Source of the DNA: Anaerolineae bacterium | Lineage (GTDB): Bacteria; Chloroflexota; Anaerolineae; JAADDB01 | Reading direction: 5' to 3' | Length of the DNA stretch: 37,114 nucleotides | Assembly (NCBI GenBank): GCA_015486845.1 | Contig: WFQU01000140.1 | Coordinates: 1-37,114 of the forward strand | Part shown: piece by piece, positions 1-37,114 of the stretch | How positions within the stretch are numbered: the stretch's first letter is position 1 | Layout: each line of letters starts with the position of its first letter | The notes under the pieces: model-generated | Seen by the model: only the letters and a program-made list of their open reading frames with translations | Told to the model about the DNA's origin: nothing | Databases searched by the model: none | Translations under genes and position numbers: made by a program

Positions 1-370
1 CCCGTGCTACGTCGCCAAGAAGCCCCCTGAAAGGGGGCTGGTGTTGAACAGCCTTTTGGCAGCGGACGCAACCTTGACGTACCCCGCCGCCGTGCCGGAA
101 TCGAGGCTTTAGCCGGTGTTGACGCTGCCAAGCCGCCTAAAGGCTCGACGCCAGTCGTAAATTTTCATCCGCTGTGGTGCGCCATAGGCTCATGATAACT
201 CCTCTAAAAATAGAATGGGACGCAGATCAACGCAGGCTGCGCACGCAGATAAAAAACAATGGTCCGGCGATTGGAAATCGCTGCTACAACTGCGAAACCT
301 GCCTGCGCAGGTTGCAAGCTAATCGCCGTAGGGCAATTTTGCAGATGTTGCCGTGACTTTTAGTCGCTGG
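1..370 (-). repeat. Composite repeat R1 (modules A, B, E, C on minus strand)
   Basis: Read on the minus strand this stretch is module A (370-264, hairpin chain), module B (about 258-137, Shine-Dalgarno plus mini-ORF), an E segment (about 136-60) and module C (58-1, G/C-rich hairpins). The A-B junction is almost identical to that at 36877-37083, and the B-E-C order matches 6583-6870. No protein gene is supported in 1-508; the 371-508 remainder holds nothing I recognise. Confidence 0.85.
137..193 (-). other. 18-codon mini-ORF inside repeat module B (copy 1)
   Basis: ATG at 193 is preceded by AGAGGAG with 5-nt spacing and opens an 18-codon frame, MSLWRTTADENLRLASSL, ending in TAG. Near-identical peptides of the same length start at 6644 and 37053 in other copies of the repeat. 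Whether it is translated is unknown; the sequence only shows a perfect initiation signal and a short frame shared by copies. Confidence 0.3.
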
Positions 371-508
371 GCGCCATCAGCCGTTATCAACTAACCCCAT
401 TCCTATCCCCGTAGCATGGCCCATTGCATTATAGCAACAGAACGCCAATGAAGCCAACCATATCGGCAAAGGGCATCGCGCGATAGCGCACCCAACTGCT
501 CAGCGGTC

Positions 509-6350: not shown

Positions 6351-6643
6351 AACAGGCAGGTAGCTGGTGGCCGGCAGCCGGCAGCCGTTAGCCGTAGCGG
6401 CAAAGCAGTTCGCCGTGCGCAGTGCAGTTTTGGCTGCTGGCGACTGGCGTCTAATCTTTAGGCAACGTGGCAGCATCGACACTGGCTAAAGCCTCCATTC
6501 CGGTGTTATGGTGTTGTATTTTCAGGGAAAGATACCACGCTTCGCTGAAAATGACGTCATCAGGATTATTTTTGACTATCATTTTTATCTGCGTGCGCAG
6601 CCTGCGTTAATCTGCGTTCTATTTTATTTTCAAAGGAGTTATC

Positions 6644-6878: not shown

Positions 6879-6915
6879 TAGAAGTTCAACTTCTGCGAGA
6901 AGTTGAACTTCTAAA
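6879..6915. repeat. Palindrome D (17-bp stem)
   Basis: A near-perfect hairpin: 17-bp arms at 6879-6895 and 6899-6915 with a 3-nt GCG loop. Each arm contains its own smaller palindrome, AGAAGTTCAACTTCT, so a cruciform with side hairpins is possible. A second copy is at 20647-20684, and a related inverted repeat is at 17760-17804. Confidence 0.8.
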
Positions 6916-7027
6916 AGGAACTGTGGCCGTGACGCCGTAACGAAACAAGTTTTTTTGATCTGGTTTTTTATCTGCGTGCGCAGCCTGCGTTAATCTGCGT
7001 TCTATTTTATTTTCAAAGGAGGTTATC

Positions 7028-12198: not shown

Positions 12199-12238
12199 AT
12201 TTATCTCCTTTCCTTTCAAAAATTGTAATCACTCAACC

Positions 12239-12346
12239 CAGCGCTTGGAAGTCACAGCAACGTCCGCTAAATCACCTTGCGGTGATTGGCATTCAGCCTG
12301 CGCAGGCAGGTTTGGCAACTGTTGCAGCGATTTCCAATCGCCGGAC
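12239..12346 (+). repeat. Module A hairpin chain, copy 2
   Basis: Four short palindromes in the order seen in the other copies. The second hairpin reads ATCACC-ttgc-GGTGAT where most copies have ATCGCC-ctac-GGCGAT: a compensatory pair change that keeps the stem. The remainder of 12199-12536 holds no gene. Confidence 0.8.
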
Positions 12347-12536
12347 GCAATAGGTTCGGGTCGTTACCACAAATTTTAGTTTTCAGACACACAGCCATCA
12401 ACCAGAAAAAAAGGACGGCAATTATCCGTCCCTCCTTGTACATTATAGTCACCACCAAGGCTACGAACTGCTACATCGGCCCGCTCCTATGGCTCAGTTT
12501 TCCAATATGATGAAACGTTATACCACTATCCTTTTC

Positions 12537-13154
12537 TCAAAAGAAGGACAGTTGTTCAAATTGATCGTCCTCGTCTTGGTCGACACTGTTGTCAGCCGTT
12601 GCAGATTCCAGTTCTGCGATCAACTCGGGAATTTTTCGCACATCATCTTCTAATGCGGTACGCCAGCGCGGTTGATGCAAGGCCGCCGCAGGGTGAAACA
12701 TAGGATAATAGATGCGATCTCCCTCCCGTTTTGGTTGTCCGTGGATGCGCGAGATAGATGCTTTTGGAAAATAACGTTGCATGGAAAAACGGCCCAAGGT
12801 GACAATAAGTTTGGGCTGAATAATATCAATCTGTTGTTCCAAGTACGGCCGGCAAGCGGCGATCTCTTCCGGCTCTGGGTCACGATTGCCCGGCGGGCGA
12901 CATTTCACCACATTAGTAATGAAAACATCTTGGCGTTGGATGCCGACATTGTTGAGCAATTCTTCCAACAGACGACCAGAAGCGCCAACGAATGGCCGTC
13001 CTTGCCGATCTTCGTGGTAGCCGGGTGCCTCGCCGATAAACATAATCTTGGCATTACTGGACCCCTCCCCCGGCACAGGATGTTTGCGGCTGTAGTGCAA
13101 TGGACATTTCTCGCATTTAGCAATCTGTTCGGCAATGTCGTGTAGTGTCGTCAT
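12537..13154 (-). CDS. Family 4 (type 4) uracil-DNA glycosylase
   Basis: A 205-aa iron-sulfur uracil-DNA glycosylase that removes uracil from DNA in base excision repair. Cys14, Cys17, Cys85 and Cys101 are the expected 4Fe-4S ligands. The catalytic motif GEAPG is at 41-45 and the DNA-binding FHPAAALH around 153-160. ATG 13154 has GAGGG about 7 nt upstream. The last 25 residues are acidic (SVDQDEDDQFEQLSFF) and extend beyond the usual end, possibly for interaction with another protein. This family is frequent in thermophiles and Chloroflexota. It has no operon partner. Confidence 0.93.
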   Translation of the reverse strand: MTTLHDIAEQIAKCEKCPLHYSRKHPVPGEGSSNAKIMFIGEAPGYHEDRQGRPFVGASGRLLEELLNNVGIQRQDVFITNVVKCRPPGNRDPEPEEIAACRPYLEQQIDIIQPKLIVTLGRFSMQRYFPKASISRIHGQPKREGDRIYYPMFHPAAALHQPRWRTALEDDVRKIPELIAELESATADNSVDQDEDDQFEQLSFF

Positions 13155-13401
13155 CTTTAACCCTCGCTGAAGATATACCGTCCGGTGCCGGCTGTAATAA
13201 GCTAACCGCTCCGGTACGCCACTTATTTTAACGTAGTTTCCCTTCCTTGTCTAATAGCGACGACATTTCTGCGTTAGTCTTTGCATGAGATAAAAAGCCA
13301 ACGCAGCCATGCAAAGCGGCCCCCATTTCTGGCCCGTGGCGGGTTAGGAAAGAATCCTGGTACTGTGTTATAATTTTACTCTATATGAAAGGTAATTTGT
13401 A

Positions 13402-14052
13402 TTGGGATACCGGAATTGGAAGGCAGTTTTACTCATCTTGGCGTTGCTTTTCTTTGTCTTGATGGTGGATATTGACGCCTATGGGCGACACGATCATGCC
13501 CATAAGGCCGATGTCATCATCGTTTTGGGCGCACGGGTGCAAAGCGACGGCCAACCCGGTGCTAATTTGCGTCGCCGGATAGAACACGCTTGGCGGTTAT
13601 GGCACAAAGGTATGGCTTCCTACCTCATTACCACAGGCGGTTTTCGTCACGAGCCGTTATCGGCCGCCGAAGTATCCCGGCGCTATTTAATTGCGGCTGG
13701 CATCCCGGCAGAGCGGATTTTCTTAGCGGAAGGTTCAACCAACACAGTACAAGATGCCCAGGTTGTCCGGCAAATCATGGCTGAGCACGGTTGGCGTGAT
13801 GCCATCGTCGTAACGCATCCCTATCATTTGTTGCGAGCGGCCTGGAGCTTCCGGCTGGCCGGAGTAAAAGTTTGCGCCAGCCCAACCAGTACCGCTGTCG
13901 CTTACATAGATTACCCGGCCCGGATTTACTATTTAGCCCGTGAAGCGGTGGGTATCATTTGGACGACGATAGTTTTCATACCTACTGTGGGACATAAATT
14001 GCAAACTTGGTTACAGCCTTCCATCAACCGGCTCAAGGCGATGTTGCCGTAA
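13402..14052 (+). CDS. DUF218 (YdcF/SanA-like) membrane-anchored protein
   Basis: A 216-aa DUF218 protein. An N-terminal hydrophobic helix (residues 6-24) anchors it, followed by ADVIIVLGARVQSDGQPGANLRRRIEHA, LITTGGF, EGSTNTVQDA and VVTHPYHLLRAAWSFRLAG, the conserved blocks of the SanA/YdcF fold. SanA-type proteins have been linked to envelope integrity; the biochemical activity is not known. Translation appears to start at TTG 13402 with a weak site (GAAAGG) upstream. A TATAAT at 13369-13374 lies suitably placed, but no good -35 box is visible. Confidence 0.85.
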   Translation: MGYRNWKAVLLILALLFFVLMVDIDAYGRHDHAHKADVIIVLGARVQSDGQPGANLRRRIEHAWRLWHKGMASYLITTGGFRHEPLSAAEVSRRYLIAAGIPAERIFLAEGSTNTVQDAQVVRQIMAEHGWRDAIVVTHPYHLLRAAWSFRLAGVKVCASPTSTAVAYIDYPARIYYLAREAVGIIWTTIVFIPTVGHKLQTWLQPSINRLKAMLP

Positions 14053-14117
14053 CCAGAATGATGGGAGCTAAAGTCTTTTTCGCTTTCATGTCGTCCAGAA
14101 TAACGAGGGAATCGGCA

Positions 14118-14380
14118 GGAGTTCGCAGCGCACCACAGCGGATAAAAGCGCCCCCTACTCCCCCCAAGGTCGGGGAGAGCAACACCCCCCCAGAACTAGG
14201 GGCCGGGGGGCAATTACTCGGCGCCCAGCGACTAAAAGTCGCGGCAACATCTGCAAAATCGCCCTACGGCGATTAGCACGCAACCTGCGCAGGCAGGTTT
14301 CGCAGTTGTGGCAGCGATTTCTAATCGCCGGGCGTGCATCAGCGTTAATCTGCGTTCTATTTTCAGAGGAGAGGAGTCAT
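14118..14380 (+). repeat. Composite repeat R5 (B fragment, F, A, B)
   Basis: 14118-14149 is a module B fragment, 14150-14221 is module F (reverse complement at 10421-10490), and 14226-14334 is module A copy 3 (hairpins at 14228-14242, 14253-14270, 14282-14299 and 14313-14327). 14336-14381 is the Shine-Dalgarno half of module B, ending in GAGGAGAGGAGTCATG. This fills the whole 340-bp gap before the radical SAM gene. Confidence 0.85.
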
Positions 14381-14396
14381 GATTTTTAGCAGATGA
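14379..14396 (+). CDS. Five-codon leader ORF from repeat module B
   Basis: ATG 14379, behind GAGGAGAGGAG (3 nt), opens MIFSR and stops at TGA 14394-14396. The stop overlaps the ATG (14393) of the radical SAM gene as ATGA. This layout suggests that ribosomes load at the repeat-borne site and restart on the downstream gene. Direct initiation at 14393 from the same site (17-nt spacing) would be poor. Translation is inferred. Confidence 0.45.
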   Translation: MIFSR

Positions 14397-20242: not shown

Positions 20243-20351
20243 TCCGTGTGGATGCCCTAAACTGATCTGTTCAAGGGGATAGCGTGCTGTAGTCTGAGGC
20301 AGGTAATGCTACAGTGATAGGAATTGGGTTGGTTGATGGCGGCTGATGGTC

Positions 20352-20684
20352 CAGCGACTAAAAGTCACGGCAACCTCTGCAAAATCGCTCTACGGCGATT
20401 AGCTTGCAACCTGCGCGGGCAGGTTGCGCAGTTGTAGCAGCGATTTCTAATCGCCGGGCGTGCGCAGACTGCGTTGACCTGCGTTCCATTCCGGTGTGCC
20501 GGCACCTTGCCGCCGTGGCGGCAAGGTACGTCAAGGTAGGGTCCTCTACAAAGAGGCTGCTTGACACCAGCCCCTTTCTAAGGGGCTTATCATTTACGTA
20601 GCACGGAGCTTTGAGCTCCGTGCGCTAAGTCGGCCAACCCCGTCGATTAGAAGTTCAACTTCTTCGAGAAGTTGAACTTCTTTA
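20352..20684 (+). repeat. Composite repeat R3 (A, B fragment, C, D)
   Basis: Module A copy 4 (20352-20460), a short B/E-like piece (20461-20553), module C (20554-20626) and palindrome D (20647-20684). In this C copy the two hairpins read AGCCCCTT/AAGGGGCT and GCACGGAGCT/AGCTCCGTGC, both fully paired although their sequence differs from the C copies at 6785 and 36794. Confidence 0.85.
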
Positions 20685-21202
20685 AACATATCGTTGGCGG
20701 CCCGAGTTCATACCAGTTTGATACTATTCACTAGTATGAACCAGGCCCGAAAACAGAAATTATTCGTATTGCCGGCACGACCGGCTTGCCTAAGCAAGCG
20801 ACCAATAACCTATCTTAATTCGTTTGACCACCTTAGCCGGGGGGACGCTTTTCGGAAGGGTTGGAGGGGAACCGTAGGGGTTCCCCTGCCGGGAGCTCGA
20901 GGGCAGCACCCTCGAAGAAGAAAAAGGAGGCGAGATTATCTTTTGGCCAGACCTTGCCTTAGGCAAAATCATGCTACGGCGCTTAGCATGCAACCTGCGC
21001 AGGCAGGTTTTGCAGTTGTAGCAGCGATTTCTAATCGCCGGGCGTGCTATCGAGAAACTATTGTGGCAGAAAAGTGGCCAATAAAGGAATCGTTGTCAGG
21101 CTGCGGAGGGCTGGCATTGCAATGTTCAGCACGCACCCCGCAGATTGGCGCAATTAACTGAGATTTTATTGAAAACCTAATCAGAAGGAAGGAGCAAAAA
21201 GC
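20685..21202. repeat. Repeat-rich intergenic stretch with truncated module A
   Basis: 20872-20894 has an AGGGGAACC/GGTTCCCCT hairpin, and 20911-20934 has GAGGGCAGCACCCTC, another short hairpin. 20965-21044 is module A copy 5, lacking its first hairpin. No credible gene: the long open frame across this stretch is composed of repeat sequence. Confidence 0.65.
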
Positions 21203-24317: not shown

Positions 24318-24420
24318 TAAAAGGTAATGACGCAGCCTACCTCTGCCGGCAATTGGGAGCCGCTCTCTCAGTTGTTCAATCTGGCTGCGCAGAATGAACG
24401 TCAATCGGCACCGGGCGCTT

Positions 24421-24455
24421 GCGCAGACGTTACCGTGACGGATAGTCGCTGGGCT
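24421..24455 (-). repeat. Fragment of module A (minus strand)
   Basis: Read on the minus strand, GCCCAGCGACTATCCGTCAC and the following bases match the first hairpin end of module A (compare 14223-14245). The rest of the module is missing. Confidence 0.55.
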
Positions 24456-24471
24456 AAATAGCGACAATGAA

Positions 24472-30845: not shown

Positions 30846-30883
30846 CTTCATGAGCCATCTGACATTATCGAACTACGCAGCCC

Positions 30884-30995
30884 TGCGACGATAAGTCATG
30901 GCAACATCGGCAAAAATCACCCCACGGCGATGGGCAAGCAACCTGTACCGGCAGGTCGCGCAACGGTTGCAACGATTTCCAATCGCCGAGCGAAG
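30884..30995 (+). repeat. Module A hairpin chain, copy 6 (diverged)
   Basis: It keeps the four-hairpin order, but several stems carry mismatches: the first reads GACGATAAGTC, the second ATCACC/GGCGAT. Together with repeat H it fills most of the 30599-31117 gap, where no gene is seen. Confidence 0.7.
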
Positions 30996-31117
30996 TAGAC
31001 TAAATCGTCACATCCAATAAATGATAACATGGGTACGCCTCACAGAAAAATGCTGTCATTAACCGCACCGGAGTTCCTTTCCATGATCCCTTTTCCTCCC
31101 TCCTTCTTCTATATAGT

Positions 31118-35095: not shown

Positions 35096-35923
35096 TTAGC
35101 GTGTGCCGCCGATGCTCGTGCCAGGAACATTCTCGTCCAAAAGAGCGCTTTGCACCCGCCCAGGTACCAGCCCGCTGATAATTTTCACCATCACCTGCGG
35201 CAGGGCAGCAGAAAGCGCCACCATCTCAGCGACTTTAGCTTCCATGCCACCAGTGACATCCGTGCCGTAGGCGGCAGCAAATTGCGCCGCCCCACTAGCC
35301 AGCATGGCTGCGTCGATATGCCGGATCAACTGCGCGTCGGGGTCGAGATGGGGATCAGCCGTAAACACGCCCGCGACCTCGCCGGCTAAGATAATACGAG
35401 CCGGACGTAATTTCGGCGCTAAAAAGCGGAAAAGTTCTTCCGTCGAAACAATGGTGCCCCCACGCATGTCGTCTAACACTACATCGCCGAAGATCAACGG
35501 GGTCAAGCCGACAGCCAAAAGCTGGTCAACCGGTTTCCAGGCTAAATCCTGCAAAACGCCGTCGTGACAGCAGCCGGAAGATAACGGCGGCAAAGGCAGG
35601 GCGTCCACGCCGGCCGCCCAGAGTGCATTGGTCACTAAGCGGTTCAACGCCCTCGCTGCCCTCGCCGTGGCGGCAAAACCATGCCACCCGGCCGGGCCGG
35701 TCACGCCCTGTCGCACATGGTAGTGATCACCAACAGCATGCCCAAAAGAGCCGCTACCATGACCAATCAGTAATCGCAAGGCAGGACGACGACGACGGAC
35801 GACAGCGATTTCATGGGCCAACCGTTCTATCACGTCCGCGCGGGGCGTTTCCGGCTGCCCTTTCTCAGTGATGAGGGAGCCACCTAATTTTAAAAAGACG
35901 CACGTTGATTCAACGTCCATCAC
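35096..35923 (-). CDS. Isopentenyl phosphate kinase
   Basis: A 275-aa amino-acid-kinase-family enzyme that phosphorylates isopentenyl phosphate to isopentenyl diphosphate, the last step of archaeal-type mevalonate pathways. FLKLGGSLIT (Lys12) and LLIGHGSGSFGHAVGDHY, with the family-specific His62, identify IPK rather than glutamate 5-kinase or UMP kinase. PLIFGDVVLDDMRGGTIVSTEEL, IILAGEVAGVFTADP and YGTDVTGGMEAKVAEM complete the ATP and substrate site. ATG 35923 overlaps the stop of the DUF126 gene (ATGA), so the two are translated together. IPK is known in some Chloroflexota such as Roseiflexus. A strong terminator follows. Confidence 0.9.
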   Translation of the reverse strand: MMDVESTCVFLKLGGSLITEKGQPETPRADVIERLAHEIAVVRRRRPALRLLIGHGSGSFGHAVGDHYHVRQGVTGPAGWHGFAATARAARALNRLVTNALWAAGVDALPLPPLSSGCCHDGVLQDLAWKPVDQLLAVGLTPLIFGDVVLDDMRGGTIVSTEELFRFLAPKLRPARIILAGEVAGVFTADPHLDPDAQLIRHIDAAMLASGAAQFAAAYGTDVTGGMEAKVAEMVALSAALPQVMVKIISGLVPGRVQSALLDENVPGTSIGGTR

Positions 35924-36327
35924 TTGTCCGCTCCGGGACGATCCACGCGGAGCACAGCGCCATCCACCGTGACCCAGTCGCCATCCCGAATTTGGGCAAT
36001 GGCAACATGATCCAGCATAGGGATTTCGGCGATGATGGCACCTACGGCAACGATAGCCTCGCTCTCGACATTGATCATCGCTGCCGGGGCTACGCCATTA
36101 CGCGCTAAACGCAAAATTGTGTAAGAGCCCACTGTGCTTCCTTTGCCGTGAGGAAAGGCTAACATTTTGCCGGCCACGGATTGCCCTTGCAACGGGTGCC
36201 CCGGCTCGACGATGATTCCCGTTTCCGGGTCCACACCACCTAAAAAGCCGATGGGCGCCGGGGAGACCAGCGCCTTCCCCCGGGCATGCCCTGACTTGAT
36301 CACCCTGCCGTGCATGATCCATTCCAT
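35920..36327 (-). CDS. Aconitase X swivel/small subunit (DUF126), candidate phosphomevalonate dehydratase small subunit
   Basis: A 135-aa DUF126 (AcnX swivel) protein. GKALVSPAPIGFLGGVDPETG, GQSVAGKMLAFPHGKGSTVGSYT (active-site Ser in GKGSTVGS, residues 61-68), NVESEAIVAVGAIIAEIPML and the C-terminal GDWVTVDG match the family. In archaea this subunit pairs with the AcnX catalytic subunit to dehydrate mevalonate 5-phosphate to trans-anhydromevalonate 5-phosphate; other AcnX enzymes act on cis-3-hydroxyproline. Co-translation with isopentenyl phosphate kinase favours the mevalonate role. ATG 36327 is chosen for the AGGTGGAG site 6 nt upstream; a longer frame runs through the tRNA gene. No large subunit lies in the window. 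Confidence 0.85.
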   Translation of the reverse strand: MEWIMHGRVIKSGHARGKALVSPAPIGFLGGVDPETGIIVEPGHPLQGQSVAGKMLAFPHGKGSTVGSYTILRLARNGVAPAAMINVESEAIVAVGAIIAEIPMLDHVAIAQIRDGDWVTVDGAVLRVDRPGADK

Positions 36328-36501
36328 TTTGATCTCCACCTCGACTGTTTTCCCAATCCTGCAACGGACCATTAAAAAGACGGCAGCGGGCAGCCTGGCA
36401 AATTTTAATGCCGTTTCTGACAACCTCGTCGCTGTTGCCGATCCGGACCGTTGCGCCATACCACGCCACGCTACACGCTTACCCGCTGCGAGGCATGGAT
36501 A

Positions 36502-36528
36502 GAGAAAAAGCCACCAGCAACTGGTGGC
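36502..36528 (-). terminator. Rho-independent terminator of tRNA-Val
   Basis: On the minus strand GCCACCAG-TTG-CTGGTGGC (36528-36510) followed by TTTTTCTC is a textbook terminator, 8 nt after the tRNA. It separates the tRNA transcript from the DUF126 operon. Confidence 0.88.
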
Positions 36529-36535
36529 CTGCCTG

Positions 36536-36609
36536 TGGGCGAAACAGGACTCGAACCTGTGACCTCTTCCTTGTAAGGGAAGCGCTCTAACCAACTGAGC
36601 TATTCGCCC
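36536..36609 (-). tRNA. tRNA-Val (anticodon UAC)
   Basis: On the minus strand the cloverleaf is complete: acceptor GGGCGAA/TTCGCCC, D stem GCTC/GAGC with loop AGTTGGTTA, anticodon stem CTTCC/GGAAG with loop CTTACAA (anticodon TAC), variable loop AGGTC, and T stem ACAGG/CCTGT with TTCGAGT. The discriminator is A and CCA is not encoded. Confidence 0.97.
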
Positions 36610-36793
36610 GTAAAAATCATTATACGTGACGGGCATGCGCCTGTCAATTTGTCAATACTTCTTCATTACAGTCCCGGTTGGGACACACCAGGAACCTAAG
36701 TCATCATCTAACAATGGCTTTCCTGAAAAAAGTCTTCTTACCGCAGAGCTCGCGAAGAACGCAGAGAGAAATAATCTGCAACGGATCTCACAA

Positions 36794-37114
36794 TACCAGC
36801 CCCCTTTCAGGGGGCTTTCTGCCACGTAGCACGGGGACTTGACCCCCGTGCCGCTTGGGCGGAGAACGATTTAGCCCAGCGACTAAAAGTCACAGCAACA
36901 TCTGCGAAATCGCCTTACGGCGATTAGCGTGCAACCTGCGCAGGCAGATTTCGCAGTTATAGCAGCGATTTCTAATCGCCGGACCATTGTTTTTTATCTG
37001 CGTGCGCAGCCAGCGTTGATCTGCGTCCCATTTTATTTTTAGAGGAGTTATCATGAGCCTGCGGCACACCACAGCGGATGAAAATAAGCCGGTAGCCGAC
37101 AGCCAGTAGCTGTC
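36794..37114 (+). repeat. Composite repeat R4 (C, A, B)
   Basis: Module C (36794-36870), module A copy 7 (36877-36984) and module B (36990-37083) run into the window end. The A-B junction (CGGACCATTGTTTTTTATCTGCG) is the same as in R1 on the opposite strand. The rest of 36610-36793 shows no gene; ACGCAGAG-type short repeats are present around 36740-36770. Confidence 0.85.
37053..37109 (+). other. 18-codon mini-ORF inside repeat module B (copy 3)
   Basis: AGAGGAG is 5 nt before ATG 37053, which opens MSLRHTTADENKPVADSQ and stops at TAG 37107-37109. The first 11 codons are those of copies 1 and 2 with one residue changed. The rest is different sequence, yet the frame ends at the same length. 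Confidence 0.3.

Follow-up and report, generated by a model that had tools for sequence, protein, structure and literature searches.

Module A elements in the window and in the source genome

The window, that is, the whole 37,114-nucleotide stretch of the Anaerolineae bacterium contig analyzed here, contains eight copies of a palindromic repeat, module A. An earlier note made from the sequence alone had claimed seven of these copies, and all seven are present where it placed them; the eighth, a diverged copy on the minus strand (24343-24453), was overlooked and is recovered both by a profile built from the other seven (nhmmer E-value 1.5e-11) and by a covariance model (E-value 3.2e-11). One full-length element (12225-12367, plus strand) is an old MITE of 143 bp, whose terminal inverted repeats are GTAATCACTCAACC and GGTTCGGGTCGTTAC; it is bounded on the left by the target-site duplication CAAAAATT (12217-12224) and on the right by CACAAATT (12368-12375), which match at 7 of 8 positions. 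Two more copies are full-length and diverged, with degenerate terminal repeats: the overlooked one, which spans 24324-24465 (minus) and has a target-site duplication matching at 5 of 8 positions, and the one at 30869-31011 (plus), with no clear duplication. Four copies consist of the core, namely the reference copy of the high-copy form (14224-14334, plus) and those at 261-371 (minus), 20350-20460 (plus) and 36875-36985 (plus). In the remaining, partial copy (20946-21044, plus; previously delimited as 20965-21044), the left quarter is replaced. A reading of 20694-21161 as a gene found no support.

The source genome is a 3.28-Mb MAG in 182 contigs, in which a first look yielded approximately 236 candidates for the reference copy, and a 415-kb sample contains 28 copies. 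Module A is a small mobile DNA element present in about 200 copies in this genome. Of the 28 sampled copies, 24 fall in sequence free of crude ORF calls, which cover 84% of the sample; the flanking genes are divergent in 9 cases, co-directional in 7 and convergent in 3, with no bias toward convergent or co-directional gaps. Literature searches retrieved no description of this family.

Hairpin architecture and folding

The module A core spans about 108 bp and is nearly palindromic, with two inverted half-units: H1 and H4 are the outer hairpins, H2 and H3 are the inner ones, and in each half the linker GCAAC-N3-TGC separates the outer hairpin from the inner one. Pairing between the two linkers is weak. 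In the reference copy, the four hairpins, all given on the plus strand, are H1 GCGACT-AAA-AGTCGC (14228-14242), H2 AATCGCC-CTAC-GGCGATT (14257-14274; the loop reads GTAG on the other strand), H3 AACCTGC-GCAG-GCAGGTT with a GNAG loop (14282-14299) and H4 GCGATT-TCT-AATCGC (14314-14328). Among 82 non-redundant cores, the H3 apex is C(GNAG)G in 68 and H2 has its complement; similarly, the H1 loops are of the GA or NGA types and the H4 loops are their complement. The arrangement is therefore the same on either strand, and most of the core copies are matched by the covariance model on both. A consensus-like copy folded as DNA reaches -35.2, compared with -21.5 +/- 2.5 in 200 dinucleotide shuffles (z -5.4), and folded as RNA reaches z -6.3. 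An early fold that paired H1 with H4 was dropped because, in the third of the subfamilies found in a related genome (G003), H1 changes together with its own partner (GCAGTTGGAAACTGC in place of GCGACTAAAAGTCGC), which breaks the H1/H4 pairing.

The paired stem changes claimed in the earlier note are real. They include the compensated pair of the copy at 12239 (AATCACC/GGTGATT as opposed to AATCGCC/GGCGATT) and two changes in another repeat, module C, where AGCCCCCT/AGGGGGCT becomes AGCCCCTT/AAGGGGCT and GCACGGGG../..CCCCCGTGC becomes GCACGGAGCT/AGCTCCGTGC.

Spread of the core and covariation of its stems

Module A copies similar at the DNA level are present in only one of 60 close genomes, G003, which belongs to another genus of the same family and carries three subfamilies that share one architecture and differ in their stems. 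A covariance model built from 29 cores extends the four-hairpin core to 58 of 298 genomes of the class, in 46 of 186 genera, and among the matches listed, most are full length. The linker GCAAC..TGC and the loop types are conserved in sequence across genera, and the fold is retained in divergent cores that lie under different transposon ends. A scan with a pattern of 25 specified positions, run on one genome per species for 84,980 species, matched 33 contigs, all from Chloroflexota MAGs (titled Chloroflexi, Anaerolineae, Anaerolineales or Ardenticatenaceae). In some genomes, the cores form clustered, tandem-like arrays, for example, L130 (G226:C1; 1501-2097) and L148 (G131:C379).

The copies in the source genome are almost identical to one another, so those in the window alone have little power to reveal covariation; the excess described below is supplied by the cores of the relatives. 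The 82 cores (less than 95% identical) were aligned with MAFFT, which is blind to structure, and compared with a null in which the inferred substitutions were re-placed on the tree, using our own script that imitates R-scape and is not R-scape itself. Most hairpin pairs are Watson-Crick in 90-99% of the cores, with frequent exchange (one H2 pair is CG in 49, GC in 21 and AT in 9 cores). When all columns were tested against all, 7 column pairs were significant, all within stems and none outside them; when only stem pairs were tested, 14 of 39 exceeded the phylogenetic null, and stem pairs occupy all ten top places in the covariation ranking. Along the tree, there are 125 double, same-branch changes and 308 single ones, as opposed to 26-30 double changes when the pairing is slid. 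The suggestion in the earlier note that structure is kept rather than sequence is thus borne out on an alignment that knows nothing of the structure, and the result that it named as refuting, no excess covariation over a phylogenetic null, is not what the comparison shows.

Transposon ends and target-site duplications

The old copies in the source genome and in G003 are 142-143 bp long and have the ends GTAACTACTCAGCC...GGCTGAGTAGTTAC. When the alignment was used to place the duplication boundaries, 7 of the 14 copies compared (one of which is the core-less 122-bp element described below) are flanked by 8-bp direct repeats matching at 7 of 8 positions or better, including the element at 12225-12367, whereas 200,000 shuffles of the partners never gave more than 5. 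The duplication is perfect (8/8) in L112 and in L102; the right end of the latter is degenerate, so that its boundary was set by element length. The elements of these two genomes, at 105-143 bp and with no transposase gene, have the short length typical of MITEs. A likely source of the transposition activity is indicated by a remnant of an IS66 transposase in locus L093 of G003 (PF03050, E-value 8.6e-7), which lies beside GTAACTATTCAGCC, bears the same end as the module A copies and, across six genomes of the family, is the sole match to an IS66 transposase. The source genome yielded no intact copy of this enzyme, so that the element may at present be unable to move or may be moved by other means. 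A core-less MITE of 122 bp (L099:2308-2429) has the same GTGACTACTCAGCC ends and an 8-bp target duplication matching at 7 of 8 positions around an unrelated interior. In the high-copy form of the source genome, the left end is degenerate and other repeat modules stand in place of the right end; most of these units have neither the right terminal repeat nor a target-site duplication.

IS66 elements generate 8-bp direct repeats (PMC3281130), and both the insertion sequences and the MITEs derived from them share with module A ends that start with GTAA and 8-bp target duplications. Unlike the IS66-derived MITEs, module A does not have a recognizable deleted IS66 as its interior; it has a structured core that is found also under other ends. 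Module A is a real family of MITEs (non-autonomous DDE transposons) that conserve structure.

Different ends around the same core

In one genome (G192), the cores are enclosed by CAGGGYCATTCARTTCTC ends, and 2 of 3 copies have duplications of 9-10 bp; the same end bounds an ISAs1-type insertion sequence (PF13808 and PF01609) in that genome. This element resembles an ISAs1-type MITE, with an 18-bp end shared with the same-genome insertion sequence and duplications of 9-10 bp, and yet its interior is the four-hairpin core that is also found in the IS66-type elements. In the genome pair G233 and G253, every full TA-flanked copy has the form TATACCAACGAAGGGC...GACAGTATA, is 172 bp long and lies within unrelated flanks; one of these, on contig C17 of G233, is absent from the orthologous, empty site in G253 (L283, G253:C459). 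The C17 element interrupts a palindrome (GACCTGACAGGTTT...AAACCTGTCAGGTC) at its loop. The same two genomes also contain cores without the TA-type ends, some of them with GTTAAC-, GCATATTCCTCAAT- or AGCAATTC-type ends; one genome pair sometimes has four end types. Further end types are found in G244, G094, G065 and G043, and outer palindromes surround 21 of 95 copies across the class, compared with 1.4% expected from mixed flanks; many cores in other genomes have no terminal repeats. On a rough tree with low support, the end types cluster with core clades within a genus, and a single genome may carry several. From these sequence comparisons, we infer that the core and the ends have probably become associated several times independently, either through transfer of the core between ends or through exchange of the ends.

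Pairing in DNA or in RNA

A single transition in a base pair produces either G.U or A.C, of which G.U is tolerated in RNA; DNA has no such strand preference. In about 2,100 cells, the four hairpins contain 31 G.U and 47 A.C mismatches, and no excess of G.U is detectable on either strand, whereas 14 tRNA genes in this dataset contain 23 G.U and no A.C in 317 cells. In DNA, GNAB tetraloops with a C-G closing pair are stable (PMC8373063, citing Nakano 2002). The mismatch balance and the C(GNAG)G apex together point to palindromic DNA rather than single-strand RNA. The earlier note had left the choice between DNA and RNA open; its claim of conserved structure stands and is narrowed here to DNA, in that the sequence evidence favours pairing kept at the DNA level, although reading of an element from both strands might produce a similar balance.

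The covariation might be purely mutational, with template switching continually perfecting the palindromes and the structure serving no function. The paucity of half-changed pairs, the lack of strand preference and the many same-branch double changes are all compatible with this scenario. We nevertheless consider it rather unlikely as the whole explanation: the linker and the loop types are kept at the sequence level across genera, and divergent copies retain the fold even with different ends around them. Template-switch repair could yield part of the covariation and would leave the conserved linkers and loops unexplained.

Protection or processing of mRNA has been proposed as a role for ERIC or NEMIS-type repeats. 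Module A might likewise be transcribed with the neighboring genes, its four hairpins acting on the mRNA in this manner, and its dispersed, intergenic location, the genuine covariation and the strong RNA fold are all as expected of such an element. An RNA role appears improbable, given the lack of G.U excess on either strand, which is in sharp contrast to the tRNA genes, and the lack of preference for convergent or co-directional gaps. Furthermore, the GNAG/CTNC apex differs from the classic GNRA and UUCG loops, although GAAG variants do occur in RNA, and an Rfam scan of the window detected only a tRNA, with no family match for module A above the gathering score.

Module C and the RAYT question

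The earlier note reported that the window encodes no transposase or RAYT, and neither domain turned up in those ORFs of the window that were scanned; the search for a RAYT/Y1 transposase that it proposed identified two Y1_Tnp genes elsewhere in the source genome, which do not fit as movers of module A. Such a mover would make module A a REPIN/BIME-like element, with a Y1 (RAYT) transposase reading the hairpins in single-stranded DNA. Module A does resemble REPINs and BIMEs in being an intergenic, high-copy, inverted pair of hairpin units, and unlike them, it has no GTAG-tagged foot and no cognate RAYT, and shows DDE-type target duplications (PMC3733652, PMC6006769). Y1_Tnp genes are present in 207 of the 298 genomes of the class, with a weak association (45 of the 58 genomes with the core and 162 of the 240 others), but are absent from 13 genomes that carry the core. 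No module A copy lies on the contigs of the two Y1_Tnp genes of the source genome, both of which are flanked by AGAAGTTCAACTTCT-type hairpins unlike those of module A, and comparison across genomes revealed no protein family repeatedly located within 1.5 kb of the core, so that a partner encoded beside the core was rejected as well. Considering also the duplications of 8 or 9-10 bp that point to DDE transposition, RAYT was rejected as the mover of module A, and a REPIN-like nature of this element is highly unlikely.

Because the Y1_Tnp genes are bounded by hairpins of the module C type, the RAYT lead applies to module C. The window contains this hairpin, AGAAGTTCAACTTCT-GCG-AGAAGTTGAACTTCT, at 6880-6912 and a second copy at 20649-20681. 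Near the Y1_Tnp genes, AGAAGTTCAACTTCT..AGAAGTTGAACTTCT hairpins are located at 1250-1282 and 1808-1840 in L032 and at about 1255-1287 in L031; the C73 copy has an internal stop and lies within duplicated flanking sequence. The module C hairpin and these RAYT-like genes are likely a REP/RAYT pair.

Finally, an origin of module A as decayed transcription terminators that arose independently can be dismissed: the hairpins are intergenic, as terminators would be, but homology unites all copies over 108 bp or more, they have no T-runs, and they are found in divergent gaps more often than in convergent ones.

A probable MITE with a class-wide hairpin core

The entire set of observations is probably best explained by a MITE moved by IS66 whose core is class-wide, with varied ends and with pairing kept as DNA. 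Of the overall reading in the earlier note, the observation itself and the precedence of structure over sequence hold, and the RAYT/Y1 lead gives way, for module A, to DDE-type ends and 8-bp duplications. Under the mechanism proposed for this family of Chloroflexota, an IS66-type DDE transposase would act in trans, now or formerly, on the 14-bp ends GTAACTACTCAGCC, and transposition would create the 8-bp target duplications. Between these ends, the two inverted half-units make both strands fold alike, and the similarity search and the covariance model place this core in a class-wide family set between different transposon ends in different genomes. The hairpins, with their C(GNAG)G apices, would form in extruded or single-stranded DNA and might be kept by selection for hairpin formation, by template-switch repair that perfects imperfect palindromes, or by both. 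The high-copy form of the source genome, having lost its right end, spreads within mosaic intergenic repeats.

Palindromic MITEs of the ERIC, NEMIS and Correia types are intergenic, 100-150-bp imperfect palindromes, and MITEs are usually taken as deleted copies of one insertion sequence. By description, module A resembles the former in size, palindromy and intergenic location; unlike them, its core pairs with several unrelated ends across the class. What looks unusual here is that one core is common to MITEs with unrelated ends throughout the class and that its covariation is DNA-like. A tentative extension of the IS66-moved MITE scenario is that the core is a portable DNA hairpin module peculiar to Chloroflexota, adopted as a MITE interior by independent transposon families (IS66-, ISAs1-, TA-type and others); it might favor amplification by binding a protein of replication, of repair or of a mobile element, with the ends being interchangeable. 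The pairing is kept while most of the stem letters change, inside MITEs with several unrelated ends. Experiments could therefore address whether a portable DNA hairpin module can promote the multiplication of mini-transposons. The same family offers a clean natural case of covariation apparently in DNA, not RNA.

Other features of the window

A dispersed repeat, ATCTGCGTGCGCAGCCTGCGTTGATCTGCGT...TTTTCAGAGGAGTTATCATG, occurs at 199-257, 6569-6638, 6952-7021, 14342-14383 and 36978-37047. It ends with a stretch resembling a ribosome-binding site followed by ATG and adjoins module A in mosaics. The longest ORF call for the aconitase-X swivel protein (35920-36636) overlaps a tRNA gene (36536-36609, minus strand), and the true start of this protein is therefore probably located further in.
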